A stretch of 64,000 nucleotides of DNA from Couchioplanes azureus (GTDB lineage: Bacteria > Actinomycetota > Actinomycetes > Mycobacteriales > Micromonosporaceae): assembly GCF_014648355.1 (NCBI RefSeq), contig NZ_BMQY01000002.1, positions 828,389 to 892,388 on the forward strand. Reading direction: 5' to 3'. Under the pieces are notes generated by a model, which was not told where the DNA came from, made no database searches, and saw only the letters and a program-made list of their open reading frames with translations. The translations under genes were made by a program, and so were the position numbers. Shown here one piece after another: positions 16,624 to 64,000 of the stretch (its first letter is position 1; every line of letters begins with the position of its first letter).

Positions 16624-18315
16624 GTGCCCGCCTCAGCCAGCGTTCTCGTGCGCGTCCACCCGCTCGCGGTAGCCGCTCGCCTCGTCATGCTCGCCCTCGT
16701 CTCGGCGCTCACCCTGATCGCCACCCAGGACGCGGGCCAGTTGCGCTGGATCGCGTTGCTGCTGGTCGCGGCGCTGCCGGCGTTCTTCCTGCCGCATCAC
16801 CGGGTGGTCGCGCCGCTGGGGCGGGTCGCCGAGGTGGCGGTCACCGGGCTGGCCGCCGGGTCGGTCGCCGCGGCCGCGAACGTCTCCGGGACGGTCGAGG
16901 CCGGGTTCGGTGCCGAGGCGGTCCTTCCGTACCTGGCGGTCCCGCTGCTGACCGCGGCGCTGCGCCGGCGGCCGACCGAGGGGGCGGCGCTGCTCGGGGT
17001 CGCGGCCGTCGCGATGGTGATCGGCGGGGTGATCGCCGAGGACGGTGAATCGATCGTCACCCAGCCGGGCTATCTCGCCGCCGGCGGGCAGTGGCTCGTG
17101 CTCGGTGCGATCGTCACCTTCGCCGCGGACACCATGCGGCAGCTCATGACGCCGGTCGAGAACAAGCCGCAGCCGTACGCGGAGGCCACCCGCCTGCTGA
17201 CCCAGCTGCGCAGCGTCGCCCGGTCGCTGCCCGGCGCGACCCTCGACCCGGGCGGCATCTCGGAGCACCTGCTCGAGGAGCTGCGCGTGGTGGCGCCCGG
17301 TCACCGGGCCGCCGTGCTGTCGGCCAGCGGCGGCGGGCGGCTGGTCGTGCTCGCCCAGACCGGCGCCGAACGCGTCGACTGGGAGGTCACCCTCGACGCC
17401 GACTCGGCGATCGCCGACGCGTGGGCGAGCCAGCAGCCGCAGACGGCGACCCGCTCGCAGGCCCGCTCGCACCAGGGCGGGGAGGCGTCGTCGCTGGTCG
17501 TGCCGCTGGTCGCCGGCGTACGCACGATCGGGCTCGTGATCCTCGAGGCGGACGTGCCGAACGCGTACCCGTCGGCGGTGATCGCGAGGGTGACCGAGGT
17601 GACCGGCCCGGCCGCCCTGCGGCTGGAGGCCGCGCTGCTCTTCGACGAGGTGCGCTCGCTGGCGACCAATGAGGAGCGTCAGCGCCTGGCCCGCGAGATC
17701 CACGACGGCGTCGCGCAGGAGCTCGTCATGGTCGGGTACGGCATCGACAACGCGCAGGCGACCCTGCCCGAGGGCGCCGACGAGACCGCCGAGGAACTGC
17801 GCACCCTGCGCGGCGAGGTCACCCGGGTCATCACGGAGCTGCGACTCAGCCTGTTCGAGCTGCGTTCCGAGGTGGACCGCAACGGCGGGCTCGCGGCGGC
17901 CATCGCCGAGTACGCCCGCACCCTGGGCACGTCCGCGGGCCTGCGGGTGCACTTCACGTTCGACGAGTCCACCGCGCGGCTGCCCGCCGCCACCGAGGCG
18001 GAACTGCTGCGCATCGCCCAGGAGGCGATCACCAACGCCCGCAAACACGCCGGCGCGTCCAACCTGTGGGTCACCTGCACGGTCGACCCGCCGTACGCGG
18101 AGATCGAGGTCTCCGACGACGGCAAGGGCTTCGCCGACGACCGCCCGGACGGGCGGTACGGCCTTGCGATCATGGCCGAGAGGGCGGAACGTATCCGAGG
18201 CCGGCTGGAGATCAGACCACGACACCCCAGCGGGACAACCGTTGCGGTAGTGCTCGGAACCTCGGCTCGGCGCGATAGCGTGCGGGATAGCGTTTCCGCA
18301 CCAGAAGGGGAGTAA
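16624..18315 (+). CDS. Sensor histidine kinase, NarL/DesK type
   Basis: This is a 563-residue membrane sensor kinase. About six hydrophobic helices lie in the first 170 residues, starting with VAARLVMLALVSALTLIA. A GAF-like region spans roughly residues 200-340 (LVVPLVAGVRTIGLVIL). The HisKA_3 domain follows with the phospho-accepting His360 in REIHDGVAQEL, and the ATPase domain carries NARKHAG (N box) and DDGKGF (G1 box). It should autophosphorylate and pass the phosphate to the response regulator encoded 7 nt downstream. The much longer frame from 16384 lacks a start signal. The signal sensed is unknown. Confidence 0.93.
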   Translation: MPASASVLVRVHPLAVAARLVMLALVSALTLIATQDAGQLRWIALLLVAALPAFFLPHHRVVAPLGRVAEVAVTGLAAGSVAAAANVSGTVEAGFGAEAVLPYLAVPLLTAALRRRPTEGAALLGVAAVAMVIGGVIAEDGESIVTQPGYLAAGGQWLVLGAIVTFAADTMRQLMTPVENKPQPYAEATRLLTQLRSVARSLPGATLDPGGISEHLLEELRVVAPGHRAAVLSASGGGRLVVLAQTGAERVDWEVTLDADSAIADAWASQQPQTATRSQARSHQGGEASSLVVPLVAGVRTIGLVILEADVPNAYPSAVIARVTEVTGPAALRLEAALLFDEVRSLATNEERQRLAREIHDGVAQELVMVGYGIDNAQATLPEGADETAEELRTLRGEVTRVITELRLSLFELRSEVDRNGGLAAAIAEYARTLGTSAGLRVHFTFDESTARLPAATEAELLRIAQEAITNARKHAGASNLWVTCTVDPPYAEIEVSDDGKGFADDRPDGRYGLAIMAERAERIRGRLEIRPRHPSGTTVAVVLGTSARRDSVRDSVSAPEGE

Positions 18316-29215: not shown

Positions 29216-30994
29216 GTGGACGTCGACGCCGGCCACGGCGCCGCGCTTGGACGTGCCCTGCCGGCGGCACCGCTGTCCCAGCGGCTCCGATCGTTCCTGA
29301 GTTTTCAGGGCAACGACGACGATCCGGTCACCACCCTGACCCGCACCCACCGCGCCATCCACCCGTCGGCCGACGCGGGCATCCTGCGCCGCAGCTACGC
29401 CGTCGCGGAGAACATGCACCGCGGCCAGTTCCGCAAGAGCGGCGACCCGTACATCACCCACCCGCTCGCCGTCGCGCAGATCTGCGCCGAGCTGGGCATG
29501 GACACGACGACCCTGGTCGCGGCCCTGCTGCACGACACGGTCGAGGACACCAGCTACACGCTGGAGACGTTGCACGGCGACTTCGGCCCCGAGGTGACCC
29601 ACCTGGTCGACGGCGTGACCAAGTTCGACAAGGCGTTCTACGGCAAGGTCGCCGAGGCCGAGACGATCCGCAAGATGATCGTCGCGGCGGGCAAGGACGT
29701 CCGGGTCCTGGTGATCAAGCTGGCCGACCGGCTGCACAACATGCGCACCCTCGACGCCCGCTCCCCCGCCTCCCGGGCCCGCATCGCGACGGCCACGCTG
29801 GACGTGCTCGTGCCCCTCTGCGACCGCCTCGGCATCCAGGCCCTCAAGCGCGACCTCGACGACGTGGTGCTCTATCACCTCGAGCCGGAGTCCTACTCCC
29901 GCATCGACGAGCACGTGAAGAACCGTCCGGGCTGGGACGAATACCTCGCGGGCGTCTCCGCACAGGCCCGCACGGCCCTGCGCCGCCAGCGGGTCAGCGC
30001 CGACGTCAAACCGCGCCCGCGGCACTACTACTCGATCTGGAAGGACACGGTCGCGGGCGGGCACACCGTCCCGTTCGATCTGCCCCGCATCGCCGTCGTG
30101 GTCGACGGGCCGGAGACCGACTGCTACGCCGCCCTCGGCGCGATCCACGGCAAGTGGCGCCCGGTGGCCGGCCGCTTCAAGGACTTCATCGCCTCACCCA
30201 AGAACAATCTCTACCGCTCCCTGCACACCACGGTCACCGGTCCCGAGGGCCGCCTGGTCGAGGTGCTGATCCGGACGGTGTCGATGCACCGCTGCGCGGA
30301 GTACGGCGTGGCCACGGGCTACCGATACCCGAAGTCCGACTCCGAGACCGCCCCCGGCACCGACCAGCTGACCTGGCTCAAGCGGGTCCTCGACTGGGAG
30401 CAGGACACCACCGACGCGGGACAGTTCCTCGCCTCGCTGCGCTGCGACCTCGCCGAGGCCCAGATCACGGTCTTCGCCAAGGGCCGCACCGTCGAGCTTC
30501 CGGCGGGCTCCACGCCGGTCGACCTCGCGTACGAGCTGAATCCCGACCAGGGCGACCAGACGCTCGCCGCGACCGTCAACGGCCGGCTGGCCCCCCTGAG
30601 CTCCCAGCTCCGCGACGGCGACGTCGTCGAGATCTTCTCCGAGACGGACGGCCACACCGGCGCCGGAACGGGCACCGGCGTGCGCGGGCCCCGCAAGGAG
30701 TGGCTCGGCTTCGTCAAATCGACGCAGGCGCAGATGCAGATCAACCGCTACTTCGCGGAAGAGAACGCCCCGGGCATCAGCATCGCCGACAAGGTCCGCC
30801 TCGGCCGCGCGACCATCGGCCTGACCCTGCGCAAACACGACCGCGGCCTGGCCAGCGAGGTCCCGCTGCGCCGGCTCGCGGAGGAACTGGGCTACCCCGA
30901 CCTGGAAACCATGCTGGTGGCGGTGACCGAGCGCAACCTCGAACCGGACCAGGTCGTGGAGCAACTCATCGCCCTGGTGGACCACCCCGACTGA
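29216..30994 (+). CDS. Short RelA/SpoT homologue without the C-terminal regulatory region
   Basis: This is a 592-residue (p)ppGpp enzyme. The hydrolase domain has HDTVEDTSYT and KLADRLHNMRTL. The synthetase domain has RPRHYYSIWKD, FKDFIASPKNNLYRSLHTT, and VEVLIRTVSMHRCAEYG, where the usual EIQIRT Gln is Leu and the following AHW is replaced by ATG. A TGS domain (ITVFAKGRTVELPAGSTP) and a helical segment follow, and the protein ends where full-length Rel continues with zinc-finger and ACT/RRM domains. It is probably a second Rel-type enzyme with altered ribosome control. GTG 29216 has GAGGGG 8 nt upstream, and a TAGGGT -10 candidate lies at 29183-29188. Confidence 0.88.
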   Translation: MDVDAGHGAALGRALPAAPLSQRLRSFLSFQGNDDDPVTTLTRTHRAIHPSADAGILRRSYAVAENMHRGQFRKSGDPYITHPLAVAQICAELGMDTTTLVAALLHDTVEDTSYTLETLHGDFGPEVTHLVDGVTKFDKAFYGKVAEAETIRKMIVAAGKDVRVLVIKLADRLHNMRTLDARSPASRARIATATLDVLVPLCDRLGIQALKRDLDDVVLYHLEPESYSRIDEHVKNRPGWDEYLAGVSAQARTALRRQRVSADVKPRPRHYYSIWKDTVAGGHTVPFDLPRIAVVVDGPETDCYAALGAIHGKWRPVAGRFKDFIASPKNNLYRSLHTTVTGPEGRLVEVLIRTVSMHRCAEYGVATGYRYPKSDSETAPGTDQLTWLKRVLDWEQDTTDAGQFLASLRCDLAEAQITVFAKGRTVELPAGSTPVDLAYELNPDQGDQTLAATVNGRLAPLSSQLRDGDVVEIFSETDGHTGAGTGTGVRGPRKEWLGFVKSTQAQMQINRYFAEENAPGISIADKVRLGRATIGLTLRKHDRGLASEVPLRRLAEELGYPDLETMLVAVTERNLEPDQVVEQLIALVDHPD

Positions 30995-32783
30995 CCCGGG
31001 CGGCGCCGGCGGGCCCGTGCCACGACTCCCACAGGGCCGCGTACGCCCCGCCCTCGCGTACCAGCTCTTCGTGGCTGCCGACCTCGCTGACCCGCCCGCT
31101 GTCCATGACCACGATGCGGTCGGCGTCCCTGGCGGTTTGCAGGCGATGAGCGATCGCGATGACGGTCCGGTTCCGTAGTACGGCGCTGAGGGCGCGCTCG
31201 GTGTGCCGGGCAGTGATCGGATCCAGCGACGCGGTCGCCTCGTCCAGTATCACCGTGTGCGGGTCGGCCAGGACGACCCTGGCCAGGCTGAGCTGCTGGG
31301 CCTGCGCGTCGTCGAGCGTGACCTCCTCACCGAACGTGGTGTCCAGACCGTCGGGCAGTTCACCGGCCCAGTCGGCGCCGACCACCTCGAGCGCGGTGAG
31401 CAGGTCGGCGTCGCCGGCGTCAGGGGCCGCGAGAAGGAGGTTGTCGCGCAACGATTCGCGAAACACATGGTGGTCCTGGGTCACGAGGATCACGTGCCGG
31501 CGCAGCTTTTCGGCGGGCAGGCTCGACACCGGCACGCCGCCGACCGTGATGGTGCCCGCCCGTGGCGCATCCACACCGGCTACCAGTCGGCCCAGGGTGG
31601 ACTTGCCGGCGCCGGACGAGCCGACGATCGCCAGGCGTTCACCGGGCCGCACATCGAGGTTCACACCGTTGAGCACATCGCGGCCGGTGCCGTAGGCATA
31701 GTGCACATTCGAGATCTCGATCCGATCGCCGACCGGCTCGCTCGCCACCTGGTACGGCGTCTCGGCGCCCCGAACGCCCTCGACCCGGGCGAACGCGGCA
31801 CCGCCGCTCTGGAGGCTCTCCATCCAGGTGAGGATCAGGTCCAGCGGTACCGACAGCTGGCGTAGGTAGAGCGCCGAGGCGGTCACCACGCCCAGGGTCA
31901 CCGCGCCGCGGTGGTACAGCAGTCCGCCGACGATGAGCACGCCGACCACGGCGATCACGTACGACGAGTCGACGACCGGGTACAGCACGCTGCGCAGGGA
32001 GAGGGTTCGCATCCGGGTGCGCATGCCGTCGTCGACGGCTCGGTCCGCGACCGCGCGGCGCTGCTGCTCGAGGCCGAAGGCATCGACCGTGCGGGCGCCG
32101 GCCGACGTGCTGACCAGGACGTCGGTGATCGCCGAGCCGGCGGTTCCCTCGGCCAGGTAGGCCGTGCGAGCCCGCCGGAGGTACCACCGGCTGACGAACA
32201 CGATGCCGGTCATGCCGACGATGCCGCAGGCACCCAGCAACGGGTCGAGGAAGAAGGTGAGCACGAGGATCAGCACGGCCTGCACGGCGGCGACGAGGAC
32301 TTCGGGGATGCCGTCGCGCAGGATCCGGGCGACCTCGGAGACGTCGTGGACCACGCGTGCCGTGATATCGCCGGGCGACGTACGTTCGACCAGCGAAGCG
32401 GGCAGCCCGAGGGCACGGTCGACCGCCTGCTCGCGAACCCGGGCGGCGGTCCGCTCGCCGAACCGGAACCCGATGAGCAGCGCCGACCGGGACAGCAGAA
32501 TCTGCAGGCCCGCGGAGAACACGATCGACAGGGCCAGCCAGTTGATCGTGGTCAGGGCGCCGGCCGACGTCGCCGGGTTCCGGGTGGCGTCGGCCACGGT
32601 GTCGATGATCCGGCCGAGCAGCCAGGGTCCGGCCAGCGCTGCCAGCGCGGCCGAGCCGTTGAGGAGCAGCATCCAGACGACCGATGCGCGATCGGCACGG
32701 ATGAGATGACGGGCTGCCCGCCGCAACTGGGCAGGTCCGGCCACCGCGAGGTGGTTCTCCGGCGGCTCGGGGTGGCCTTCCAT
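30966..32783 (-). CDS. ABC exporter half-transporter with degenerate signature motif
   Basis: This is a 605-residue type IV half-transporter: six membrane helices in the first 320 residues, then a nucleotide-binding domain. Walker A (VGSSGAGKSTLG, about residue 385), Walker B (VILDEATASLD) and the H-loop (AIAHRLQ) are intact. The ABC signature that should read LSGGQ is LDDAQAQQ (about residue 490). It starts 1 nt after the stop of the partner gene, so the two are coupled and almost certainly form a heterodimer. Its 3' end overlaps the convergent rel gene by 29 bp. No cargo, lantibiotic or resistance gene is adjacent. Confidence 0.9.
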   Translation of the reverse strand: MEGHPEPPENHLAVAGPAQLRRAARHLIRADRASVVWMLLLNGSAALAALAGPWLLGRIIDTVADATRNPATSAGALTTINWLALSIVFSAGLQILLSRSALLIGFRFGERTAARVREQAVDRALGLPASLVERTSPGDITARVVHDVSEVARILRDGIPEVLVAAVQAVLILVLTFFLDPLLGACGIVGMTGIVFVSRWYLRRARTAYLAEGTAGSAITDVLVSTSAGARTVDAFGLEQQRRAVADRAVDDGMRTRMRTLSLRSVLYPVVDSSYVIAVVGVLIVGGLLYHRGAVTLGVVTASALYLRQLSVPLDLILTWMESLQSGGAAFARVEGVRGAETPYQVASEPVGDRIEISNVHYAYGTGRDVLNGVNLDVRPGERLAIVGSSGAGKSTLGRLVAGVDAPRAGTITVGGVPVSSLPAEKLRRHVILVTQDHHVFRESLRDNLLLAAPDAGDADLLTALEVVGADWAGELPDGLDTTFGEEVTLDDAQAQQLSLARVVLADPHTVILDEATASLDPITARHTERALSAVLRNRTVIAIAHRLQTARDADRIVVMDSGRVSEVGSHEELVREGGAYAALWESWHGPAGAARVSRGGPPGR

Positions 32784-32784
32784 C

Positions 32785-34518
32785 TCACACCCGGCCGGGT
32801 GCTGCCGCTTCGGCGCGGTCCTCGCCGCCCCGTTCCACCAGGGCGCGGTAGCCGGGCTCGTCCGCCATCAGGTCACGGTGCGTGGCGCAGGCCGCGACCC
32901 GGCCATCGATGACGTGGAAGACGACATCGGCCTGTTCAAGGAGCAGCGGTGAGGTGGTCGTCACGACCGTCGTACGGCCCGCCCGGGCCGTCTTGAGGCG
33001 CTGGGCGAGCGTGGCCTCGGTGTGGGCGTCCAGCGCCGAGGTCGGCTCGGTGGCCAGCAACACCTCGGGATCGGCGAGCAACGCCCGGACCAGCCGGAGT
33101 CGCTGCCGCTGGCCACCGGACAGGTTGCCGCCGCGGGCGGCGATCACCGATTCGAGCCCGGCCGGTAGCGCCTCCACGATGTCCTCGGCGACCGCCGCCT
33201 GCACGGCCCGCCTGATCGCCTCCGCGCTGCGGTCGCGCCGGCCGGAGACCACATCACGGAGCCGGCCTTCGAACAACTGCGCGTCGTTCTCCGTGACAAG
33301 GATCCGAGCACGCACGGCCGTCCGTGCGATGTCGGATACGCGCAGGTCGCCCCACACGGCTTCCGAGTCGGTCAGGCGCCCCAGCCGTTCGACGATCGCG
33401 GCCGAATCCGCCGAGCGACCAGCGACGATGGCCGTCATCAGACCGGGCTCGATCACCACGCCGGATACCGGGTCCCGCAGCAACGCCGGTGACGCCGGCC
33501 CTTCGGGCACGGCGTGCGGGAGATCGACCGGTCGCGGCAGCGACAGCAAGCGCGTCACGCGGCGAGCGGCAACCGCTGCCCGGCTGAGATCCGATCCGCC
33601 CTCGATGAGGGACGACACCGGGACCACCAGTACGGCCGCGTACCCGTAGACCGCCACCAGTTCTCCCACGCTGATCTCACCCCGTACCGTCATCGCCGCT
33701 GCCAGCCAGGTGACGGCGGCCAGGAAGACGGCCGGTAGCCCGACGCCGAGGGCTTGCACCCAGCTGGTCACGGAGCCGACCCGGTACCCCGCCGCCTGGA
33801 GCAGTTGCGAGCCGCTGCGGTAGCGGTCGCTGTGCACGGACTTGCCGCCGAAGCCGTTGAGCACCCGCAGACCGTGGACGATGTCCACGACCTGGTCGGA
33901 GAGGCGGCCCTCCTGTTCCCGGTAGGCGTTGCTGCGGCGCTGCAGCCGCCCGAGCAACGGGCCGACGATCGCCACGAGGGTCGGCACACCGGCCAACACC
34001 ACGATGGCCAGCAGCGGAGCGATGGACAGCAGCAGGCCGGCGACCACGAGGTAGGCGACAACCGCACCGAATCCCGGGCCGGTCACGGTCAGGGCCTGCG
34101 CGATGACCCAGATGTCGCGGCTGCCGACGGCAACGATCTCGCCGGACGAGACCAGCCGCGGCAACCGGACCCCCAGCGCCGTGGTCTGGCGGACGACCGC
34201 ACGCACCACCCGGTACGCGGCGTCCAGCCTGATCCGGGTCATCGTGCGGTGCCTCATGATGGCGAGGAAGGCATCGGCCAGGCCGACCGCCGCCAAGACG
34301 CCCGACCACAGAAGGAGACGGCCGAAGTCCCTGTCCCCCAGCCCCCGGTCGATGGCCAGCGACAGGACGTAGGGCGGCAGCGTGAGACCGACCATCCAGC
34401 TGACGCCGAACAGCGCGCCGCAGGCCACGCGCAGGGACTGACTCCTGACCAACCACCACAGAAATCGCCACGGGCGCCGCAGGTCGGTCGCCGACGGGTC
34501 GCTGTGCGAATCGGTCAT
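32785..34518 (-). CDS. ABC exporter half-transporter with lost Walker motifs
   Basis: This is a 577-residue partner half-transporter with six N-terminal membrane helices. Its nucleotide-binding domain is the mirror image of its neighbour: the Walker A position reads VAGRSADSAAIVERLG with no GK(S/T), Walker B reads LLATEPTSALD (Asp replaced by Thr, catalytic Glu kept), and the H-loop region TTTSPLLLEQAD lacks His. The signature LSGGQRQRL (about residue 463) is perfect. In a heterodimer this gives one fully canonical ATP site and one fully dead site. GGTGGGGG/CGAGG precedes the ATG. Confidence 0.9.
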   Translation of the reverse strand: MTDSHSDPSATDLRRPWRFLWWLVRSQSLRVACGALFGVSWMVGLTLPPYVLSLAIDRGLGDRDFGRLLLWSGVLAAVGLADAFLAIMRHRTMTRIRLDAAYRVVRAVVRQTTALGVRLPRLVSSGEIVAVGSRDIWVIAQALTVTGPGFGAVVAYLVVAGLLLSIAPLLAIVVLAGVPTLVAIVGPLLGRLQRRSNAYREQEGRLSDQVVDIVHGLRVLNGFGGKSVHSDRYRSGSQLLQAAGYRVGSVTSWVQALGVGLPAVFLAAVTWLAAAMTVRGEISVGELVAVYGYAAVLVVPVSSLIEGGSDLSRAAVAARRVTRLLSLPRPVDLPHAVPEGPASPALLRDPVSGVVIEPGLMTAIVAGRSADSAAIVERLGRLTDSEAVWGDLRVSDIARTAVRARILVTENDAQLFEGRLRDVVSGRRDRSAEAIRRAVQAAVAEDIVEALPAGLESVIAARGGNLSGGQRQRLRLVRALLADPEVLLATEPTSALDAHTEATLAQRLKTARAGRTTVVTTTSPLLLEQADVVFHVIDGRVAACATHRDLMADEPGYRALVERGGEDRAEAAAPGRV

Positions 34519-40334: not shown

Positions 40335-40931
40335 TTACTGAAGCCAATAGATCATGGCGAACAGCGCGATCCACACGATGTCGACGAAGTGCCAGTAGTA
40401 GGACACCACGATCGCGGAGGTGGCCTGCGCCGGCGTGAACCGGCCCATGGTGGTGCGGATCATGTAGACGATGAAGGCGACCAGACCGCCCGAGACGTGC
40501 AGGCCGTGGAACCCGGTGGTGAGGTAGAACATCGACCCGTAGCCGTCGCTGTTGATCTTGATGCCGTCCTCCACCAGGTGGCGGTACTCGTTCGCCTGGC
40601 CGAGCACGAAGATCAGGCCCATGACGAAGGTGATGGTGAACCAGCGTCGCAGCGCGAACACGTCACCCTTCTCCGCCGCGAAGACGCCGAGCTGGCAGGT
40701 GACCGACGACAGCACGAGGATCACCGTGAACGTCGTCGCGTACGGGATGTTCAGGGCCTCGGTGTGCTTCTCCCACTGGCCGGGGTCCGCCGCGCGGATC
40801 GCGAAGTACATCGCGAACAACGCCGCGAAGAACATGAGTTCGCTGGAGAGCCACACGATGGTCCCGACGCTGACCATGTTGGGTCGGGTCAGCGAATGGA
40901 TCCGGCTCTTGTCGATGGCTGCCGCTGTCAC
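40335..40931 (-). CDS. ctaE: Cytochrome c oxidase subunit III
   Basis: This is a 198-residue five-helix subunit of the aa3-type terminal oxidase. [19 protein letters not shown], the Glu-containing GQANEY and the conserved [14 protein letters not shown] plus [14 protein letters not shown] are characteristic. Subunit I (ctaD) is not in the window, as is normal in actinobacteria where it lies elsewhere. The GTG start has no ribosome binding site; AATAAT ends 6 nt before it. It is the first gene of the ctaE-qcrCAB operon. Confidence 0.97.
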
Positions 40932-44955: not shown

Positions 44956-45882
44956 CTACTTCCCTGCGGCCATGGGCTGGTTCCACGACTGACCCTGGCG
45001 ACGGGTGTCGAACGGCTTCGTCGTGGTGGCGAAGCGCTCGTCCCCGGTGAAGCCGATGGCTCCCATCGCGTCCTGGGTGCTCGCACCCTTCTTCTTCGCC
45101 TCGAGGAACTGGTTGAAGCGCTCGGGCGAGACGACGACCAGCTCGAACTGCATGAAGGCGTGGTACGTGCCGCAGAGCTCGGCGCACCGGCCGACGTAGC
45201 GGCCCTCCCGGTCGAGGGTGACCTCGAAGACGTTGCGCACGTTGCCCGGGAAGACGTCGCGCTTGAACAGCATCTCCGGCACCCAGAACGAGTGGATGAC
45301 GTCGCGGCTCGTCTCCTCGAACCGGATCTTCTTCCCGGTCGGCAGCACCAGCAGCGGGATCACGTCGGAGGAGCCGAGGTTCGACGCCACGGTGTTGGCG
45401 TCCTCGCCGGGCGCGTCGCGGTAGTTGAACTGCCAGTTCCACTTGAACGCGACGACCTCGACGGTGTGGTCGGGCTTGGCCGACAGCTTGTCCACATCGG
45501 TCTGCACGATCGCCGTGTAGTAGAAGAGCACCGCGACGATCAGCACCGGGGTGACCGTGTAGAGCACCTCCATCGGCATGTTGAACCGCGTCTGCACCGG
45601 CAGGGTGTCGCCCCGCTTGCGGTACCGGATCACGCACCAGAAGATCAGGCCCCACACGAAGAAGCCGACGACCAGCGCGGCGATCGTCGAGGCGATCCAC
45701 AGGTCGTACATCTTGTGGGCCTGCTCGGTGATGCCGTGCCGCGGCCAGCCGAAGCCGCCGAGCCGGTCACCGATGTCATTCGCGGAACAGCCGGACAGCA
45801 GGGCCAGCAACACGGCACCACTGACACCGAGCCCGGCGAGCCGTACGACGCGCGGCCGTGCGACCGAACTCCTTGAGACCAC
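44956..45882 (-). CDS. ctaC: Cytochrome c oxidase subunit II
   Basis: This is a 308-residue lipoprotein subunit. Its signal peptide ends in the lipobox LLSGC (AGLGVSGAVLLALLSGC), two membrane helices follow, then a cupredoxin domain with the CuA site: the first His in VIHSFWVPEM and the CAELCGTYHAFM block with two Cys, His and Met. It accepts electrons from the bc1 complex. The start GTG 45882 is chosen because GGGAGG lies 9 nt upstream; the longer frame to 45939 adds an unlikely N-terminus before the signal sequence. Confidence 0.96.
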   Translation of the reverse strand: MVSRSSVARPRVVRLAGLGVSGAVLLALLSGCSANDIGDRLGGFGWPRHGITEQAHKMYDLWIASTIAALVVGFFVWGLIFWCVIRYRKRGDTLPVQTRFNMPMEVLYTVTPVLIVAVLFYYTAIVQTDVDKLSAKPDHTVEVVAFKWNWQFNYRDAPGEDANTVASNLGSSDVIPLLVLPTGKKIRFEETSRDVIHSFWVPEMLFKRDVFPGNVRNVFEVTLDREGRYVGRCAELCGTYHAFMQFELVVVSPERFNQFLEAKKKGASTQDAMGAIGFTGDERFATTTKPFDTRRQGQSWNQPMAAGK

Positions 45883-46041
45883 CTGCTCCTGCCTCCCTAG
45901 AGCACCGCCCGGTGCGACGAATCCGGACACCGGCGGCAAGGTGTCACCGACGGTCGCACACTACTCGACCAGGCCCCGCCGCCTGGCTACCGGGGGTCGG
46001 ATCTTCGACCGGGCGGGCAATACCCCTGATCCTGTGGACGA

Positions 46042-49516: not shown

Positions 49517-50629
49517 TCACCGGCTCCATTGCCCGGCGAGCCTCGCCCCGATCTCCCTCAGGCCGCGGGCCGGCTCGGCCAGCGCCCGCTCCTCGGAGCC
49601 GAAGTGCTCCAGCAGCGCGAACGTCTCGGTGACGCCGGCGTTGGCGGCCTCCCGGTAGCCCGTCTCGTTGCGGCCGGCGACCACCACGCACGGCAGGCCG
49701 CGGTCCCGGGCGGCGTTCGCGACGCCGGCGGCCACCTTGCCGCGCAGCGACTGGTGGTCGAAGGACCCCTCCCCCGTGATCACCAGGTCCGCCCGGTCGA
49801 GCTGCTCCTCCAGCCCGATGATCCGGGTGACGAGGTCGATACCGGACACCATCCGGGCGCCGAGGGCCAGCAGCGCGGCGCCGACCCCGCCCGCCGCCCC
49901 GGCACCCGGCATCGCCGCCAGGCCGTCGATCTCGAAGGCCCTTTCCAGGACGCCGGCGAAGTGCTCCAGCGCGGCGTCGAGGCGCAGCACGTCCTCCCTC
50001 GTGGCGCCCTTCTGGGGGCCGTAGACGTTGCTGGCGCCGTGCAGGCCGAGCAGCGGGTTGTCGACGTCGGTGGCCGCCACCAGGCGGACCTGGCGCAGGC
50101 GGGGCGGGCCCTCCAGGCGGTCGGCCGCGCCGAGGACGGCACCGCCGTACGGCAGCGCGTACCCGCCGGCGTCGACCGGCCCGGCGCCCAGCGCGGCCAG
50201 CATCCCGGCGCCGGCGTCGTTGACCGCGGAGCCGCCCAGGCCGACGACCACCTCGACCGCGCCCGCCTCGACCGCGGCGGTCAGCAGCAGGCCCAGCCCG
50301 TACGACGTGGCGGCGCCGGGGTCGAGCTCCTTGCGGGTGAGCAGGTGCAAGCCGCACGCCTGGGCGCTCTCCACGTACGCGGTGGCGCCCACGAGCAGGA
50401 CCTCGCCGCGCACCGGGCGCCCCAGCGGGTCGACGGTGGCCACCGGGACGCGCCGGCCGTCCAGGGCGCCGCCGACCACCTCCGTGAAGCCGGGACCGCC
50501 GTCGGAGAGGGGCCGCAGCACGCACTCGTCGCCCGGGGCCGTCTCGCGCCAGCCCTCGGCGACCGCGGCGGCCACCTCGGCGGCGCTGAGCGTTCCGGCG
50601 AACTTGTCGGGGCAGATGAGGACGCGCAC
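49517..50629 (-). CDS. Glycerate kinase
   Basis: This is a 370-residue kinase of the class II-type glycerate kinase family (GarK/GlxK). The opening VLICPDKFAGTLSAAEVAAAV, then LSDGGPGFTEV, GLGGSAVNDAGAGML and ITGEGSFDHQSLRGK are family blocks. It makes 2- or 3-phosphoglycerate from glycerate. The frame is open to 50803, but GTG 50629 begins exactly at the conserved VRVLICPDKF and sits 6 nt after TACTTT, so leaderless translation is likely. Mycobacteria have the same gene here (Rv2205c). Confidence 0.92.
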   Translation of the reverse strand: MRVLICPDKFAGTLSAAEVAAAVAEGWRETAPGDECVLRPLSDGGPGFTEVVGGALDGRRVPVATVDPLGRPVRGEVLLVGATAYVESAQACGLHLLTRKELDPGAATSYGLGLLLTAAVEAGAVEVVVGLGGSAVNDAGAGMLAALGAGPVDAGGYALPYGGAVLGAADRLEGPPRLRQVRLVAATDVDNPLLGLHGASNVYGPQKGATREDVLRLDAALEHFAGVLERAFEIDGLAAMPGAGAAGGVGAALLALGARMVSGIDLVTRIIGLEEQLDRADLVITGEGSFDHQSLRGKVAAGVANAARDRGLPCVVVAGRNETGYREAANAGVTETFALLEHFGSEERALAEPARGLREIGARLAGQWSR

Positions 50630-56111: not shown

Positions 56112-57059
56112 CTACGACCGGTAGAGCCGCGCGACGACGTCCTCGATGTCCGGCTCGACGAGCGACAGGTCGCGCACCGACGCCAGGGCGGTCAGCTCAC
56201 CCACCACCGCCCCCGCCGACGAGGACAGCAGGTCGAACGACGCCCGGTGGCCGTCCGCCTCGAGCGACACCAGCTCCGCGCCGGGCACGGTGAAGCCCGG
56301 CCGCAGCGGCACGTCCAGGTCCGCGACCAGGCGGCGGCGCGAGCCGTACCGGGAATGCAAGGCCTCGATCGTCCCGTCGTGCACCACCCGGCCGTGGTCG
56401 ATCACCACCAGCCGCCGGCACAACCGCTCGATGTCGGCGAGGTCGTGCGTCGTCAGCACCAGCGTCACCGCGCCGGTGGCGCCGAGCTCGGCGAGGAACG
56501 AGCGGACCGCCTGCTTGCTGACCACGTCCAGCCCGATCGTCGGCTCGTCCAGGAACAGCACCGACGGCCCGTGCAGCAGGGCGGCGGTCAGCTCGCCGCG
56601 CATCCGCTGGCCCAGCGACAACTGCCGCACCGGCGTGTCCAGGAACCCGTCCAGCTCCAGCAGCGCCCGGCAGCGGCGCAGCCGGGCGGCGTGCGCGTCC
56701 GCGGGCACCCGGTAGACGTGGCGCAGCAGCGCGAACGAGTCGCGCAGCGGCAGGTCCCACCAGAGCTGGGAACGCTGCCCGAAGACCACGCCGATGCGGA
56801 GCGCGAGGCGCGTGCGCTGCGGCACCGGGGTCAGCCCGCAGACCGACACCGCGCCCGCCGACGGGGCCAGCACCCCGGTCAGCATCTTCAGCGTCGTCGA
56901 CTTGCCGGCGCCGTTCGGGCCGATGTAGCCGACCATCTCACCCTCGGCGATGGTCAGGTCGATGCCGTCCACGGCGGTCACCGTCCGCTTCTCACGGCGC
57001 AGCACACCCTTGCGGACGCGTACGGTGAAATCCTTGCGCAGACCCTGCATCTCGATCAT
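56112..57059 (-). CDS. ABC-2 type exporter ATPase
   Basis: This 315-residue ATPase has Walker A GPNGAGKSTTLK, a signature region LSLGQRMRGEL, Walker B SVLFLDEPTIGLD and the switch His in TTHDLADIE. The extended first strand (RKDFTVRVRKGVLRREKRTV) is typical of a subgroup that pairs with DUF990-type ABC-2 permeases. The C-terminal extra domain (LDVPLRPGFTVPGAELV onward) is a regulatory addition. ATG 57059 overlaps the stop of the permease gene as ATGA, so the three-gene operon is translated as one unit. Confidence 0.93.
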   Translation of the reverse strand: MIEMQGLRKDFTVRVRKGVLRREKRTVTAVDGIDLTIAEGEMVGYIGPNGAGKSTTLKMLTGVLAPSAGAVSVCGLTPVPQRTRLALRIGVVFGQRSQLWWDLPLRDSFALLRHVYRVPADAHAARLRRCRALLELDGFLDTPVRQLSLGQRMRGELTAALLHGPSVLFLDEPTIGLDVVSKQAVRSFLAELGATGAVTLVLTTHDLADIERLCRRLVVIDHGRVVHDGTIEALHSRYGSRRRLVADLDVPLRPGFTVPGAELVSLEADGHRASFDLLSSSAGAVVGELTALASVRDLSLVEPDIEDVVARLYRS

Positions 57060-57856
57060 GAGCCCGTACTCCGGTAATGCCTGATCCCGGCGCGCCACAC
57101 GACGGCGGCGGCGCCCGCGGCGACCAGGGCGGCCAACGGTGAGACGAAGCCCGCCCAGGCGGGCAGGCCGAGCGGGTCGGCGCGGCCCAGCAGGGCCAGC
57201 GCCGGCTGGTAGGCGACGAACCCGAAGCCCATCGCGTACGCGAACAGCACCCGGAACCAGCCGTCGTAGACGGGCACCGGATAGGCCGCGAAGTCCCGGC
57301 CCCCGTAGGTGAAGGCGTTGCCGACCTCGCCCGACTCGACCCACCAGAAGGCGAGGCTGGCGCTGACCACGAAGACCGACCCGAAGAACAGCGCACCGGC
57401 GACCGGCGCGGCGACGACCAGCGCCAGCCGGGGCGCGGTCCAGTCGAGGTCGTTGAGGCGCAGCGCCACCCCGAGCACCGCGGCGGCGACCACGATGCGC
57501 AAGGCCTTGCGCATCGGCAGGTCCATGAGCACGAGCTGCGGCAACGCGCCGAGCGGACGCACCAGCACGGCGTCCAGCGTGCCGGTGCGCACGTAGGTCT
57601 TGAGCCGGTCGATGTTGCCCACCACGAAGTCGGCGACGGCGAACCCGCACGACGAGAGACTGACGACGAGCAGCCCCTCGGCCACCGTGAAGCCGGCGAT
57701 CGTCCCGGCCGTCCGGAAGAACACCAGCACGGCGATGACGTCGAGCAGCCCGCCGACGACGTTGGTGCCCAGCTCCACCACGAAGGACGCCCGGTAGGAG
57801 GCCAGGGACCGCCACTGCCCGGCGAACAGCGCCGCGTACGCCCGCAGCTCAGCCAC
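57056..57856 (-). CDS. ABC-2 type permease, subunit 1
   Basis: This is a 266-residue membrane protein with about six helices (GGLLDVIAVLVFFRT, VVSLSSCGFAVADFV and ALFFGSVFVVSASLAFW among them). NIDRLKTYVRTGTLDAVLVRPLG is the cytoplasmic coupling loop shared by this permease family. It pairs with the adjacent permease to form the channel of the exporter. The substrate is unknown. Its GTG start is 41 nt downstream of the stop of the partner permease gene. Confidence 0.88.
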   Translation of the reverse strand: MAELRAYAALFAGQWRSLASYRASFVVELGTNVVGGLLDVIAVLVFFRTAGTIAGFTVAEGLLVVSLSSCGFAVADFVVGNIDRLKTYVRTGTLDAVLVRPLGALPQLVLMDLPMRKALRIVVAAAVLGVALRLNDLDWTAPRLALVVAAPVAGALFFGSVFVVSASLAFWWVESGEVGNAFTYGGRDFAAYPVPVYDGWFRVLFAYAMGFGFVAYQPALALLGRADPLGLPAWAGFVSPLAALVAAGAAAVVWRAGIRHYRSTGS

Positions 57857-57897
57857 GCCGCACCCCCGCGCCCGCCCGCCCCGGCCCGCCGCCCGGC

Positions 57898-58758
57898 TCA
57901 GCCACCCTGGACCACCAGTCGCCTTTCGGCGCGCCGCTGGACGAGGGTGGCCAGCGCCAGCAGTGCCGCCGCCCACGCCGCCTGCAGGGCGACCAGGCCC
58001 AGCTGGACCGGCGCCGGGTCGCGCTCGACCAGCACGTCCAGCGGCGTCTGCAGCAGGCCGGGGAACGGCGTGCCGACCCACAACGTCACCGCCAGCCAGT
58101 CCGGCAGGAACCGCAGCGGGAAGTAGAGCCCGGCCAGGATGCCCGCCGACAGGGTCCAGAGGATGATCGGGCCGCGCGCGTCGTGCAGCCAGTACGCGGT
58201 CGCGTTGACCAGGAACCGCAGGCCCAGGCTCGCGACCACGGCCAGCCCGACGGAGAGCGCGAACAGCGGGACGGTGAACCATCGGCCGGGGGCGTACAGG
58301 TCGAAGAAGAGCGCGCCGACGGCGAGCGGCGGCAGGAAGCGGAAGATCATCGCATGGCCGGCCCGCCCCAGGTCGGGAGCCAGATACCCGGCCACCACGG
58401 GTACGGGACGCAGCAGGTCGGCGGCCACGTCGCCGGAGCGCACCCGGTCGGCGAGCTCGGTCCATCCCCACAGCGACACCACCGTGAGCAGACCCTGACC
58501 CACCCAGACGAACGTGACGAGCTGCGTGGTGCCGTATCCGCCCGGCCGTCCCCCGGCGGCTCCGGCGGCGACGGCGAGCAGCACGTAACACCGGAGGAAC
58601 CCGAAGACGATATTCGTGAACGATCCGGCTATGGTCGCCTGCCGGTAGGTCGCGTACCTCCGGAAACCCGACCACGAAAGCGCACCGAACGTAGTGACAG
58701 AATCCCGTAACGGACCGCGGGGAGAGATCGCAGGCACCCTGGCGTCGAGCCGTTCCAC
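57898..58758 (-). CDS. ABC-2 type permease, subunit 2
   Basis: This is a 286-residue membrane protein with about six helices (SFTNIVFGFLRCYVLLAVAA, TLSAGILAGLYFPLRFLPDWL and others) and the coupling loop RVRSGDVAADLLRPVPVVAGYLA, a form of the same loop as in its partner. It opens the export operon. AGAGGAG lies about 11 nt ahead of the GTG start. The divergent giant-protein gene begins 209 nt away across a region with a 16-nt tandem repeat. Confidence 0.87.
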   Translation of the reverse strand: MERLDARVPAISPRGPLRDSVTTFGALSWSGFRRYATYRQATIAGSFTNIVFGFLRCYVLLAVAAGAAGGRPGGYGTTQLVTFVWVGQGLLTVVSLWGWTELADRVRSGDVAADLLRPVPVVAGYLAPDLGRAGHAMIFRFLPPLAVGALFFDLYAPGRWFTVPLFALSVGLAVVASLGLRFLVNATAYWLHDARGPIILWTLSAGILAGLYFPLRFLPDWLAVTLWVGTPFPGLLQTPLDVLVERDPAPVQLGLVALQAAWAAALLALATLVQRRAERRLVVQGG

Positions 58759-58967: not shown

Positions 58968-61900
58968 ATGAACGGCTGGAGCTCACACGTCGGCGCCGGC
59001 GGCTGGGACGACGAACCGGCCTGGGTGTACGAGATCACCTGGGAGTGGCAGCCCCTGCCGGGCCAGCGCTACCCGGGCGACCCGGGCCGCCGCCGGGCCG
59101 TCCACCACCCGGTCTACGACGCGGCCGCGGCCGCCGAGGCCGCCGCGTCCTGGGACGCCGACTTCCGGGCCATCGCCCAGGCCTCGGGGCCGCCGGTGTC
59201 CGAACCGGGCCGGCCCGCGCCCGATCACCCGGTCTCACCGCCGCGCCCGCCGGGCGGATGGTCCGGCCGGCCCGGCACCCCGGGCCCCCCGATCTCCCCG
59301 GCCGGAAGCCACCCGGTCTCTCCCGCCGCGAGCCACCCGGTCTCCCCGGCCGGCGGACGCCCGACCTCGGCACCCCCGGGACGCCCGGTCTCCCCGGCCG
59401 CGGGACGCGCCACGGTCGGCCGCCCACCCCAGCCCCCGCCGTCCTGGACCGCCCCACCCGACCAGCCGGCGGCGACACAGCAGCCGTCCTGGACCGCGCC
59501 ACCCGAGCAGCCGGCGGCACCCCAGCAGCCGTCCTGGAACCGCCCCATGCCGCTGCCGGAACGCCTGCTCGACCCCGACCGCCGACCCGACCCACGCCGG
59601 GGCGGCCCCTACGGCCCTGTCCCGAACGGCCCTGTCCCGAACGGCCCGCACGGCCCTGTCCAGAACGGCCCTGTCCAGAACGGCCCTGTCCAGAACGGCC
59701 CGCACGGCCCAGGCCAGAACGGTCCGCACGGCCCCGGCCAGAACGGTCCGCACGCCGCCGGTCAGCCGCCTCGGCCATATCCCGGCACGCGACCGCCGGC
59801 TCCGGACGCCACGCCCCGCGCGCCCCGGCAGGATGCGCCACGTCCGGGCGCACCATACGGTCCCTACGGCCCCGAACCGTCTCGTGCTTCGGACGCACCC
59901 TTCGGTCCCGGCCGCCCGCAGGGCCCGGCGGCCCCGCACGGCCCGGGCACGGGCCGTGGCCCTGGCGACGTTTACGGCCCGAACACATCCCATCGCGCAG
60001 GGGCAAGCTCCGGCATGGGAGCGCTCCACGGCGCCGGAGCGACCCAGGGCTCGGATCCGTCCCACCGCTCGGATGCGCCCCACCGCTCGGATGCGCCCCA
60101 CCGCTCCGATGCGCCCCACCGCTCCGATGCGCCCCACCGCTCCGATGCGCCCCACCGCTCCGATGCGCCCCACCGCTCCGATGCGCCCCACCGCTCCGAT
60201 GCGCCCCACCGCTCCGATGCGCCCTACGGCTCGGATGCGCCCTACGGCTCGGATGCGCCCTACGGCGAGCCGCGGTTCGCCGGACCTCGTCCGGAGCCGC
60301 GCTCCGCGAAGCCCTACGGCGATCCACGCCCGGCCGCGCCCTACGCGGCGCCCCACGGCGTGCCCCAGCCCGGCGCCGTCTACCCGCCACGGCCGGAAAC
60401 CCGCGCCTACCCCCAGCCGGCCCCGGACCGCTCGGAACTGCCGGCCCCGCACCGCCCGGACCTGCCGGCCCCGCACCGCCCGAACCTGCCGGCCCCGCAC
60501 CGCCCAGATCTGCCGGCCCCGCACCGCCCAGATCTGCCGGCCGCAAACCGCTCGGATGTGGTCGACGCCCGCCGCCCGGATGTGGACATGCGCCAGTCTG
60601 CACCGCGGCGCGGGATGCACAATGCCGAGCCGCCGACCGACCCGCGCTTCCCGGCGCCGCTGCAAGCACGACAGGACGTGGAGACTCCTCGCCAGGCCTG
60701 GTATCCGCCGGAGACCACCCAGCAACTGTCCGCTCCGCCGTCCGAGCACACCGCGGCAGCTCCGAACCCGTGGGCACCGCCGCCGGTCCCCGCCGTGCCC
60801 GCCCCACCGGTCTTCGTCGCGCCGGAACCCGCCGCTTCCCGGGCCGCCGAGCCGGCTCCTACCGCGCCCGAACCCGCCGCGCCCGAAACTGCCGAGCCGG
60901 TCACTGCCGCGCCCGAACCCGCCGCTCCCGAAACTGCCGAGCCGGTCACTGCCGCCCCCGAACCCGCCGCTCCCGAAACTGCCGAGCCGGTCACTGCCGC
61001 CCCCGAACCCGCCGCTCCCGAAACTGCCGAGCCGGTCACTGCCGCGCCCGAACCCGCCGCTCCCGAAACTGCCGAGCCGGTCACTGCCGCGCCCGAACCC
61101 GGCGTTGCGGAAGCTGTCGAGCCGGTTCCTGCCGCGGAACCCGCCGCACCGGAGGCCGCCGAGCCGGTTCCTGCCGCGGAACCCGCCGCACCGGAGGCTG
61201 CCGAGCCGGTCGCTGTTACGCCCGAACGCGCGACGTCGGAGGCAGCGGAGACCGGTGCGGAGGAGGACGGCCGCGGTCTCGGGTGGCTGCTTTCCCTGAG
61301 CGGGCTCGGCGCCGTCAGTCCCGTGCCCGTGTCGCCCGCTCCCGAGGTGGCTGCCGACGCGTCCCAGGACACTCCGATCAGCGGCGCTCCGGTCAGCGCG
61401 GCGCCGGTCAGCAGCGCACCGACCAGCGGCGCGCCGGGCAAGTCCGACTGGTTCTCGTCCTCGCCCGAGACTGCGGACGAGGGCGAGAAGGTCGTAGAGG
61501 CTCCTCACGAGCCGGTCCAGGCTGCGGACGAGCCGGCCCAGCTTGCCGACGAGGCGACCGAGACTTCGGACGCGCCGGCCGACGTCACGAGTGAGCCGGC
61601 CGATGAGCCGGCCGATGAGCCGGCCGACGTTGCGGATGAGCCGGCCGATGCTGCCGCCGAGCCCGCGGCGGCATCCGACGACCAGGCGTCGGCCGCCGAT
61701 ACCGCGGACGATCTCGCGGCGGCAGACACCGAGGCACCGGTCCAGGAACCGGCCGAGACGCCGACCGAGCCTCACGCCGAGGAAACGGGTGAGGAGCGGG
61801 CCGAGGCGCCGGCGCAGGAGCTGGCCGAGGCGCAGGCCGAGGTGCCGGAACCGGTCGCCGAGGTGGCCGAGCCAGTCGCCGAGGTGGCGGAACCGGTCAC

Positions 61901-63470
61901 GGAGGTGGCCGAGCCGGGTACCGAGGTGGCGGAACCGGTCACGGAGGTGGCCGAGCCGGGTACCGAGGTGGCGGAACCGGTCACGGAGGTGGCCGAGCCA
62001 GTCGCCGAGGTGGCCGAGCCGGGTGCCGAGGTGGCCGGGCCGGGTGCCGGGGATGGTGGGGCCGGGCGGGTCGAGAGAGCGGTCCGGGCGCCCAGCATGC
62101 AGCTGCCCACCGTTTCCGTCGTTCCTCCGCCGGAGCCCGAGGCCGAGCCCCTGCCTACCCTCGTCGACCCGGAGCAGGTGCTTGCCGCGTACCCGTGGGA
62201 GGTCGATCCGGTCACCCTGCGGGAGACCGCCGCCGAGCCGGACCGGATGCGGGCCGTGCGGGATCGGCTGACCGACAAGCTGGAGTATGCCGAGCGGGAT
62301 GCCGTGCGGGCGCGGCTGCTCAGCCTGCGGGCCGTGGTGAGCCGGGTGCTCGGCGAGTACGGCCGGGCGCTGGCCGACGCGCGGGAGGCGTTGCGGCATG
62401 CCGAGGCCACCGGCGAGCTGCCGCGGATCGCGATCGTGCAGGCCCGGCTCGCCCATGTGCAGCACTGGCGCGGGGACTTCGCCGAGGCGGACCGGCTCTA
62501 CGAGGAGGCGAACTCCGTCGAGCTGCCCGGGCTGCTGCGGGCCGAGATGCACGTCAACGCCGGGAAGTGCTGTTACGAGCAGGGGCGCTATCTCGAGGCG
62601 TGCAACCATTTCGAGCTGGCGCTGGAGCTGCGGCGGGTCGAGGATCCGGAGCTCGTGGCCCGGACGGAGGCCGCGCTGGACGCGGTGATGGCCCGGGTGC
62701 AGGAGACCGGGTGGGGGCCCTACCCGCGCTCGCGCGAGGAGATCCTGCAGCAGAGCCGTCCGCCGCAGCCGGCTTCGGACCATGAGACCGGGTTGCGCGG
62801 GTACGCCGACAGCAACGGCGATCTCGTCGTCCCCGCGGACTACGCGCAGGTCCAGCCGTTCAGCGAGGGTGCCGCGTGGGTGCGCCGCCCGGATGCCGAG
62901 GCGTGGGAGCTGATCGACGAGACGGGGACGCTGCTGATCGACGGCGCGTCCGCGTACGTGCGGGTCATGCCCTTCTCCGACGGGCTGGCGTGGGTGTCGC
63001 GGGAGCCGGAGGGCGGCTGGTTCGCCGTCGACTGGCACAACCGGGTGATCGTGCCGGGCGGGTTCGACGACGTGCGGCCGTTCCGGCGGGGCGTGGCGCC
63101 GGTGCGCCGGGACGGCTGGGGCGCGCTCGACCGGCACGGGCGGATCGTGGTGCCGCCGGCGTACCGGAGTTTCGCCACCGCGCTGACGCCCGCGGGCCGG
63201 CAGGTCGACGGGTTCACCGAGGAGGGTCTCGCGGTCGTCGGGGCGGAGGACCGGTTCGGGGTCGTGGACCGTACGGGCCGGCTGCTCGTGCCGCCGGTGC
63301 ACGCGCGGGTGCTGATCCACCCGTCCGCGTACGTGATCGGTGACCCGCAGGGCCGGTGGGGTGCCCTCGACCGGCAGGGTGAGCCGCTCGTCGACGTGGT
63401 GCACCCGGAGCCCGCGGACGTCGTCCGGGAGATCGACCGGCTGCACCCGGACGCCAGGCCGGTCCTGTAG
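58968..63470 (+). CDS. 1500-residue repeat protein with TPR-like and WG-repeat C-terminus
   Basis: Residues 1-70 form a small folded part ([14 protein letters not shown], then [18 protein letters not shown]). Residues 80-1060 are disordered and Pro/Ala-rich, with arrays of [39 protein letters not shown] and PV(T/A)EVAE units. A helical, TPR-like domain follows (about 1065-1250: [51 protein letters not shown]). The last 220 residues are WG-type repeats ([34 protein letters not shown]). There is no signal peptide. The layout suggests a cytoplasmic scaffold or partner-binding protein; function is unknown. The ATG has no clear ribosome binding site. Confidence 0.85.
59613..59753 (+). repeat. NGP-type repeat array in the giant gene
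   Basis: Units of 15-21 nt encode [18 protein letters not shown] and similar blocks, nearly identical at the DNA level (AACGGCCCTGTCCAG repeated). Confidence 0.85.
60051..60266 (+). repeat. 18-nt x 12 array encoding [12 protein letters not shown]
   Basis: Twelve contiguous 18-nt units: one SDPSHR, eight SDAPHR and three SDAPYG. Variation is limited to a few positions (TCG or TCC for Ser, CAC-CGC versus TAC-GGC), which points to recent expansion. Confidence 0.95.
60441..60560 (+). repeat. 24-nt array encoding PAPHRP(D/N)L
   Basis: Four full 24-nt units start at 60441, 60465, 60489 and 60513, followed by a degenerate fifth. Confidence 0.9.
60864..61215 (+). repeat. 45-nt array encoding [15 protein letters not shown]
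   Basis: Five near-identical 45-nt units run from 60864 to 61088, followed by degenerate relatives ([13 protein letters not shown]) to about 61215. Confidence 0.93.
61848..62053 (+). repeat. 21-nt array encoding EP(V/G)(A/T)EVA
   Basis: About nine 21-nt units alternate [14 protein letters not shown] and PVAEVAE; pairs form a 42-nt higher-order unit. Confidence 0.9.
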
Positions 63471-63514
63471 GCGACATGCGCAGCGAGCGCCCGGCCGGTC
63501 CGGCGCGCGACGGG

Positions 63515-63520
63515 TAACGT
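63515..63520 (+). promoter_or_regulatory. -10 element for the leaderless aldo/keto reductase gene
   Basis: TAACGT ends 8 nt before ATG 63529, with no ribosome binding site. Confidence 0.5.
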
Positions 63521-63528
63521 CGGCGGAC

Positions 63529-64000
63529 ATGGAGTTCCGTCATCTCGGCCGTTCCGGGCTGCTGGTCAGCGAGATCGCGTACGGGAACTGGATCACCCAC
63601 GGTTCCCAGGTGGAGGAGGACGCCGCCGCGGCGTGCGTCCGGGCCGCGCTCGACGTGGGGATCACCACGTTCGACACCGCGGACGCGTACGCCGGCACCC
63701 GCGCCGAGGAGGTCCTGGGCCGGGCGCTGAAGGGCGAACGCCGCGACGGCCTGGAGATCTTCACCAAGGTCTTCTGGCCGACCGGGCCGGGCCCCAACGA
63801 CCGCAGCCTGTCCCGCAAGCACCTGATGGCGTCGATCGACGGTTCGCTGCGCCGGCTGCAGGTGGACCACGTCGACCTGTACCAGGCGCACCGCTACGAC
63901 AACTCGACGCCGCTCGAGGAGACGATGGAGGCCTTCGCCGACATCGTGCACTCCGGCAAGGCGCTCTACATCGGCGTCTCGGAGTGGACCGCGGCGCAGA
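63529..64000 (+). CDS. Aldo/keto reductase, Kv-beta/YghZ-like, 5' part only
   Basis: The visible 157 residues open with [21 protein letters not shown]. The catalytic Asp and Tyr are in [10 protein letters not shown], the Lys in [11 protein letters not shown], and the His in [10 protein letters not shown], completing the AKR tetrad. [19 protein letters not shown] is characteristic of the AKR6/AKR14 (potassium-channel beta subunit and YghZ) branch. It should reduce aldehydes such as methylglyoxal using NADPH. The C-terminus lies beyond the window end. A leaderless-type -10 element precedes the ATG. Confidence 0.93.

Follow-up and report, generated by a model that had tools for sequence, protein, structure and literature searches.

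A putative heterodimeric ABC exporter of Actinobacteria with one canonical and one impaired composite ATP site

The gene pair and its nucleotide-binding motifs

The window analysed here, a 64,000-nucleotide stretch of the Couchioplanes azureus genome, encodes two adjacent half-transporters, A and B, on its minus strand. Both open reading frames begin with ATG, and B lies upstream of A with a gap of a single base. In each half, Pfam identifies an exporter membrane domain fused to a nucleotide-binding domain (NBD). The ABC_tran profile covers the NBD of A in full, while it aligns to B only from position 48, leaving the Walker A part of B unrecognised. The features are as follows.

30966..32783, minus strand: subunit A, half-transporter with exporter fold, 605 aa; PF00664 and full-length PF00005; nucleotide side intact, signature broken
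31692..31694, minus strand: A, A-loop Tyr364; Tyr in 99/99 partners
31596..31622, minus strand: A, Walker A GSSGAGKST (sequence and alignment)
31476..31478, minus strand: A, Q-loop Gln436 (alignment)
31290..31316, minus strand: A, LDDAQAQQL in place of the signature; xSGGQ gone in 99/99 partners
31218..31250, minus strand: A, end of Walker B and D-loop, ILDEATASLDP (alignment)
31146..31148, minus strand: A, switch (H-loop) His546 (alignment)
32785..34518, minus strand: subunit B, half-transporter, 577 aa; PF00664 and PF00005 from profile position 48; signature and D-loop kept, NBD without nucleotide side
33445..33498, minus strand: B, stretch ahead of the Walker A position, A-loop missing (alignment)
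33394..33420, minus strand: B, Walker A position, GRSADSAAI without GK(S/T) (alignment, register loose here)
33286..33288, minus strand: B, Asn411 at the position of the Q-loop Gln (alignment)
33097..33123, minus strand: B, intact signature LSGGQRQRL, completing the live site (alignment)
33025..33060, minus strand: B, Walker B without Asp and intact D-loop, LLATEPTSALDA (alignment)
32947..32955, minus strand: B, Thr-Ser-Pro where the switch His-Arg-Leu belongs; Ser-Pro in 100/101 B-like homologues

Sequence and alignment together give A the motifs GSSGAGKST, VTQD, LDDAQ, VILDEA, the D-loop ASLD and AHRL, while B has GRSADSAAI at Walker A, VTEND at the Q-loop, LSGGQRQRL, LLATEP at Walker B, the D-loop SALD and TTTSP at the switch. 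The earlier note, which had described A as keeping Walker A, Walker B and the H-loop His with LDDAQ for LSGGQ, and B as keeping LSGGQRQRL while losing GK(S/T), the Walker B Asp (replaced by Thr) and the H-loop His, is confirmed on every one of these points. Two further losses in B go beyond it, namely the empty A-loop Tyr column and the Asn in place of the Q-loop Gln. Judged by sequence, one composite site is canonical and the other is impaired: B is devoid of the A-loop, the Walker A Lys and the Q-loop Gln, and the parts for ATP binding are not retained.

The pair is surrounded by genes for a RelA/SpoT-type protein, a NUDIX protein, a nucleotidyltransferase and an Lrp-like protein, and by qcr/cta genes. 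The window holds ctaC (44959-45930) and ctaE (40338-40931) and no COX1 (ctaD) match, although ctaD normally adjoins ctaC; COX1 is matched by one full copy and four pieces, situated either on different contigs or at the ends of contigs. A 1500-aa open reading frame with WG and TPR repeats (58968-63470, plus strand) adjoins a set of ABC-2 type transporter genes (56112-58758) and is overlapped by a long antisense frame (59235-63530). Two tRNA calls by ARAGORN (16850-16925 and 50381-50470) fall inside protein-coding genes for a histidine kinase and a glycerate kinase, respectively, each on the strand of its gene and antisense to none; given this location, both may be false positives.

Conservation of the motif layout in homologous pairs

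B was searched against 60 genomes of the genus, all of which gave a best match with E 3.5e-126 or better, and against 296 genomes of the phylum, from which the stretches around selected matches were fetched. We examined 121 loci, excluding those with short flanks from the count, and arrived at 101 B-like NBDs from 69 genomes, 10 family codes and one phylum; the window pair is not included in the 101, while three paralogues from its own genome are. Eighteen further loci contained only other ABC NBDs. As the homologues were selected by likeness to B, the conserved absence of motifs is partly a matter of ascertainment; the same searches also retrieved classical degenerate pairs, and the trait tracks the clade. 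In the plasmid collection, the best matches to B come from Streptomyces, at 59-60% identity, and the 11 records with a coverage of B of at least 80% all belong to Actinomycetota. Seven of these 11 were inspected, and all seven named loci (Streptomyces, Nonomuraea, Arthrobacter) display the same layout. A scan of named genomes with B yielded one confirmed locus (Collinsella), which encodes a canonical ABC ATPase, and no named relatives.

An A-type gene adjoins its B-like gene within the fetched stretch for 99 of the 101 homologues, always in the order B then A and on one strand. The remaining two are a locus at a contig end (L052) and a true orphan (L162). The orphan was also viewed in a 19.9 kb context (L202), in which no A-type gene is found. 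Partner swapping was considered and was not seen in the genome of the window, where each of the four B-like genes has one of the four best A matches as its neighbour; elsewhere, the orphan is the single exception.

The earlier note had placed all working motifs on one composite site and all broken ones on the other, and had proposed a search for the same complementary losses in homologous pairs. Our survey revealed this layout in 99 of 99 pairs, and the sorting of intact and broken motifs onto the two sites exceeds chance. Among the 99, neither a pair intact in both genes nor a change of partner turned up, the orphan L162 standing apart. The A partners retain the Walker A Lys, the Walker B Asp and Glu, the Q-loop Gln and the switch His in 99/99, and xSGGQ is present in none (0/99). 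In the paired B subunits, the Walker A Lys and the switch His are each found in 0/99, while xSGGQ is kept in 98/99 (the exception, L109, reads FSSGE) and the D-loop Asp in 99/99. A GK[ST] search of the 101 B-like NBDs gave a single match, in L142, away from Walker A. The A-loop column holds Tyr in 99/99 A subunits and a gap in 101/101 B-like sequences, although two columns upstream a Tyr is aligned in 7 of these and a His in 8; the Q-loop Gln occurs in 1/101 (L095). The switch of B reads Thr/Ser-Ser-Pro, with Ser-Pro in 100/101 against Arg-Leu in 99/99 A subunits. Seven of the 101 B-like genes (7/99 in pairs: L145-L149, L169 and L158) still have the Walker B Asp, with Walker A, the A-loop and the switch His already gone, a distribution that suggests a stepwise loss of motifs.

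The loss of Walker A itself had been called unusual, and the contrast set agrees. The Lys is present in 32 of 33 other NBDs of the survey and in all 11 classical degenerate subunits from the same search, in which the Walker B Glu is changed to Asp; among the cases consulted in PMC7756269, the only changes of this Lys are to Arg in ABCG5/G8 and to Cys in Pdr5.

That B is a decaying gene or a pseudogene might be supposed from the disappearance of most of its nucleotide motifs. Open frames, a near-invariant signature and D-loop, a newly fixed Ser-Pro at the switch and 101 homologues across 10 family codes make this scarcely credible, and we regard pseudogene and sequencing error alike as ruled out by conservation. 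The latter, raised in the earlier note, is excluded because the losses of the Walker A Lys, the A-loop and the switch His recur in 101/101 B-like homologues.

A FastTree phylogeny of 112 rows separated 102 B rows from 10 classical subunits by a fully supported branch, to be read with caution on account of long branches. The B rows form clade I (70 rows, including the window) and clade II (32 rows). The D-loop Asp of A is lost in 31/31 clade II pairs and kept in 68/68 clade I pairs, and the A subunit of the window keeps it as well. According to PMC4242082, each D-loop of TAP helps to build the composite site that holds the Walker motifs of the other subunit, and the clade II loss thus falls on the dead site.

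The two sites also differ in their rates of change, expressed as weighted entropies in bits and computed after removal of one misaligned A row (L134). The live site hardly varies: 0.48 for Walker A of A, 0.0 for its A-loop, Q-loop, Walker B Asp-Glu and His, 0.26 for the signature of B and 0.46 for its D-loop. At the dead site, B scores 2.20 at Walker A, 2.02 at the Q-loop, 2.24 at the Walker B Asp, 1.08 at the Walker B Glu and 1.20 at the switch, and A scores 1.47 at the signature and 1.04 at the D-loop; the means are 1.69 for B and 1.32 for A. Walker A, the Q-loop and the Walker B Asp of B therefore vary faster than the average position of the B NBD, while the signature of A lies only slightly above the A mean, and the switch and the Walker B Glu of B are more conserved than the B mean despite their location in the dead site. 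The fixed Ser-Pro and the constrained switch point to a new structural role at this position of B rather than to plain decay.

Gene neighbourhoods and candidate substrates

We searched 80 wide contexts for FecCD, SidA-type monooxygenase and NRPS genes. At least one of these siderophore/NRPS genes was present in 22/32 clade II contexts (FecCD 16, NRPS 14, SidA 6) against 1/48 in clade I. The contrast (Fisher p 4.6e-11) is descriptive only, as the rows are related, and it is somewhat biased, since a clade II locus supplied the Fec and SidA queries, and L186, the sole clade I match, supplied the NRPS query. The clearest case is found on a Streptomyces plasmid (L198), in which the clade II pair lies between genes for a SidA/PvdA monooxygenase, a formyltransferase, iron-chelate uptake and an NRPS. 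The substrates of clade II are most likely peptide siderophores, and this sister clade supplies candidate siderophore exporters in Streptomyces and relatives.

Siderophore importers with an exporter fold exist (IrtAB, YbtPQ), and together with the siderophore loci of clade II they raise the question of whether the pair is an exporter-fold importer, or else a regulator, instead of an exporter. We consider this improbable, since clade II loci usually already contain FecCD/FecE uptake genes (FecCD in 16/32), which makes export the missing function.

In clade I, a relative 55% identical to B lies within an NRPS cluster (L137/L186). On a Streptomyces globosus plasmid, a pair assigned to clade I by its motifs (L196, 7956-11566) stands beside methyltransferase, P450 and dpgABC genes, possibly a peptide antibiotic cluster. 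The paralogue pair C5 of the window's genome (L173) and its relatives, also clade I, lie beside tsaD and a TsaD-like/GNAT run in 9/10 Streptomyces contexts, and from this conserved position one copy looks vertically inherited. The remark of the earlier note that no cargo gene lies near the window pair holds: no cargo gene and no siderophore biosynthesis or uptake gene was found by Pfam among the 36 other window proteins, and we assign no substrate to the pair. Apart from the pair itself, none of its neighbours is shared with the 80 contexts, and an upstream operator search returned short GC-rich inverted repeats only.

Proposed mechanism and comparison with known systems

From the motif layout and its conservation, the near-invariance of the live site, the drift of much of the dead site and the gene pairing, all of which were directly observed, we infer a heterodimer with an empty dead site that spends one ATP per cycle and works in the export direction. 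Since two A subunits would not make up a canonical site and B is not equipped for ordinary ATP binding, the motifs are most simply read as those of an obligate heterodimer with a single catalytic site. Overall, we consider it probable that A and B are the two halves of an obligate heterodimeric exporter with a type IV (type I exporter) fold, using a single ATP, with the dead site as a nucleotide-free hinge. For ATP binding and hydrolysis, A would supply the A-loop, Walker A, Q-loop, Walker B and switch His, and B would face them with its LSGGQ and D-loop. The NBD of B would bind no nucleotide and act as the activating partner through its signature and D-loop. The other interface would be a nucleotide-free protein hinge, whereas for known degenerate exporters a hinge glued by ATP has been proposed.

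The literature bears on this proposal from different sides. P-glycoprotein mutants can still transport with only one Walker A site left intact (PMC4846820). According to PMC7756269 and PMC12038006, degenerate exporters that have been studied retain ATP at the impaired site, where it is said to serve as glue or hinge. A conventional degenerate exporter at the extreme end of the range, with a dead site incapable of catalysis that still holds nucleotide by non-standard contacts, as in Pdr5, is a rather unlikely alternative to the one-ATP reading. In its favour, Pdr5 has Lys changed to Cys, Glu to Asn, His to Tyr and an LNVEQ signature, and its deviant site nevertheless contains ATP (PMC8421411 and PMC7756269). 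In B, the switch (TSP) and the Walker B Glu/Asp positions are still constrained. We also count against one ATP per cycle the Walker B Asp in 7/101 homologues, the D-loop Asp kept by A in clade I, the small margin by which the A signature exceeds the A mean, the orphan B and the partly ascertained nature of the conserved absences. What tells against nucleotide at the dead site is that B is without an A-loop in 101/101 homologues and that, of the parts tested, variation is highest in its Walker A stretch (2.2 bits), unlike a site selected for ATP.

We hold as evenly poised the broader proposal that Actinobacteria may possess an old and widespread clade of ABC exporters using one ATP per cycle, in which the second site would now be a protein hinge marked by the fixed Ser-Pro and ATP glue would not be required, one branch secreting peptide siderophores and the branch of the window carrying other cargo. 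Why many ABC exporters have one degenerate site, and whether ATP is needed there as glue or hinge, are open questions, and the present family is a natural case for asking whether one bound ATP suffices. PMC7756269 argues that the degenerate site has kept a function since its sequence has not diverged further; in this family, such further divergence is seen on the B side, alongside a frozen live site. We found no description of an actinobacterial exporter without Walker A among the listed titles and abstract beginnings of the open-licence PMC literature, which is not proof of absence.

Among the solved relatives listed, B matches YheI (BmrC), and A matches TM_0288 and the 5mkk_A/6raf_A chain, which we take to be TmrA. 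Like A and B, TM287/288, BmrCD, TmrAB and MsRv1273c/72c consist of two half-transporters with one consensus and one degenerate site, the degenerate motifs being split over both subunits. The classical degenerate subunits differ from B in keeping Walker A (11/11), and MsRv1273c/72c differs in having ATP at both sites, with the ATP called glue (PMC12038006). TAP1/TAP2 follow the same composite-site logic, and the D-loop Asp of their degenerate site is dispensable, TAP2 D638A behaving as wild type, whereas very low ATPase activity remains at that site (PMC4242082). ABCG5/G8 likewise has a degenerate site with a changed Walker A Lys, but the change is only to Arg and the transporter is a type II exporter (PMC7756269).

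Pdr5 and the fungal PDR transporters resemble A/B in that every broken motif, including the Walker A Lys and the switch His, lies on one composite site. They differ in being a single chain with the order of NBD and membrane domain reversed; the Pfam architecture of A/B, with the membrane domain first and two genes, does not fit the NBD-first single-chain PDR layout. In PMC8421411, Pdr5 is called the most extreme case, and its degenerate site still holds ATP; in B the A-loop is lost as well. The kind of transporter is therefore a known one, the heterodimeric degenerate exporter, and what appears to be new here is a degenerate site that has gone from ATP-binding to nucleotide-free and is widespread in Actinobacteria.
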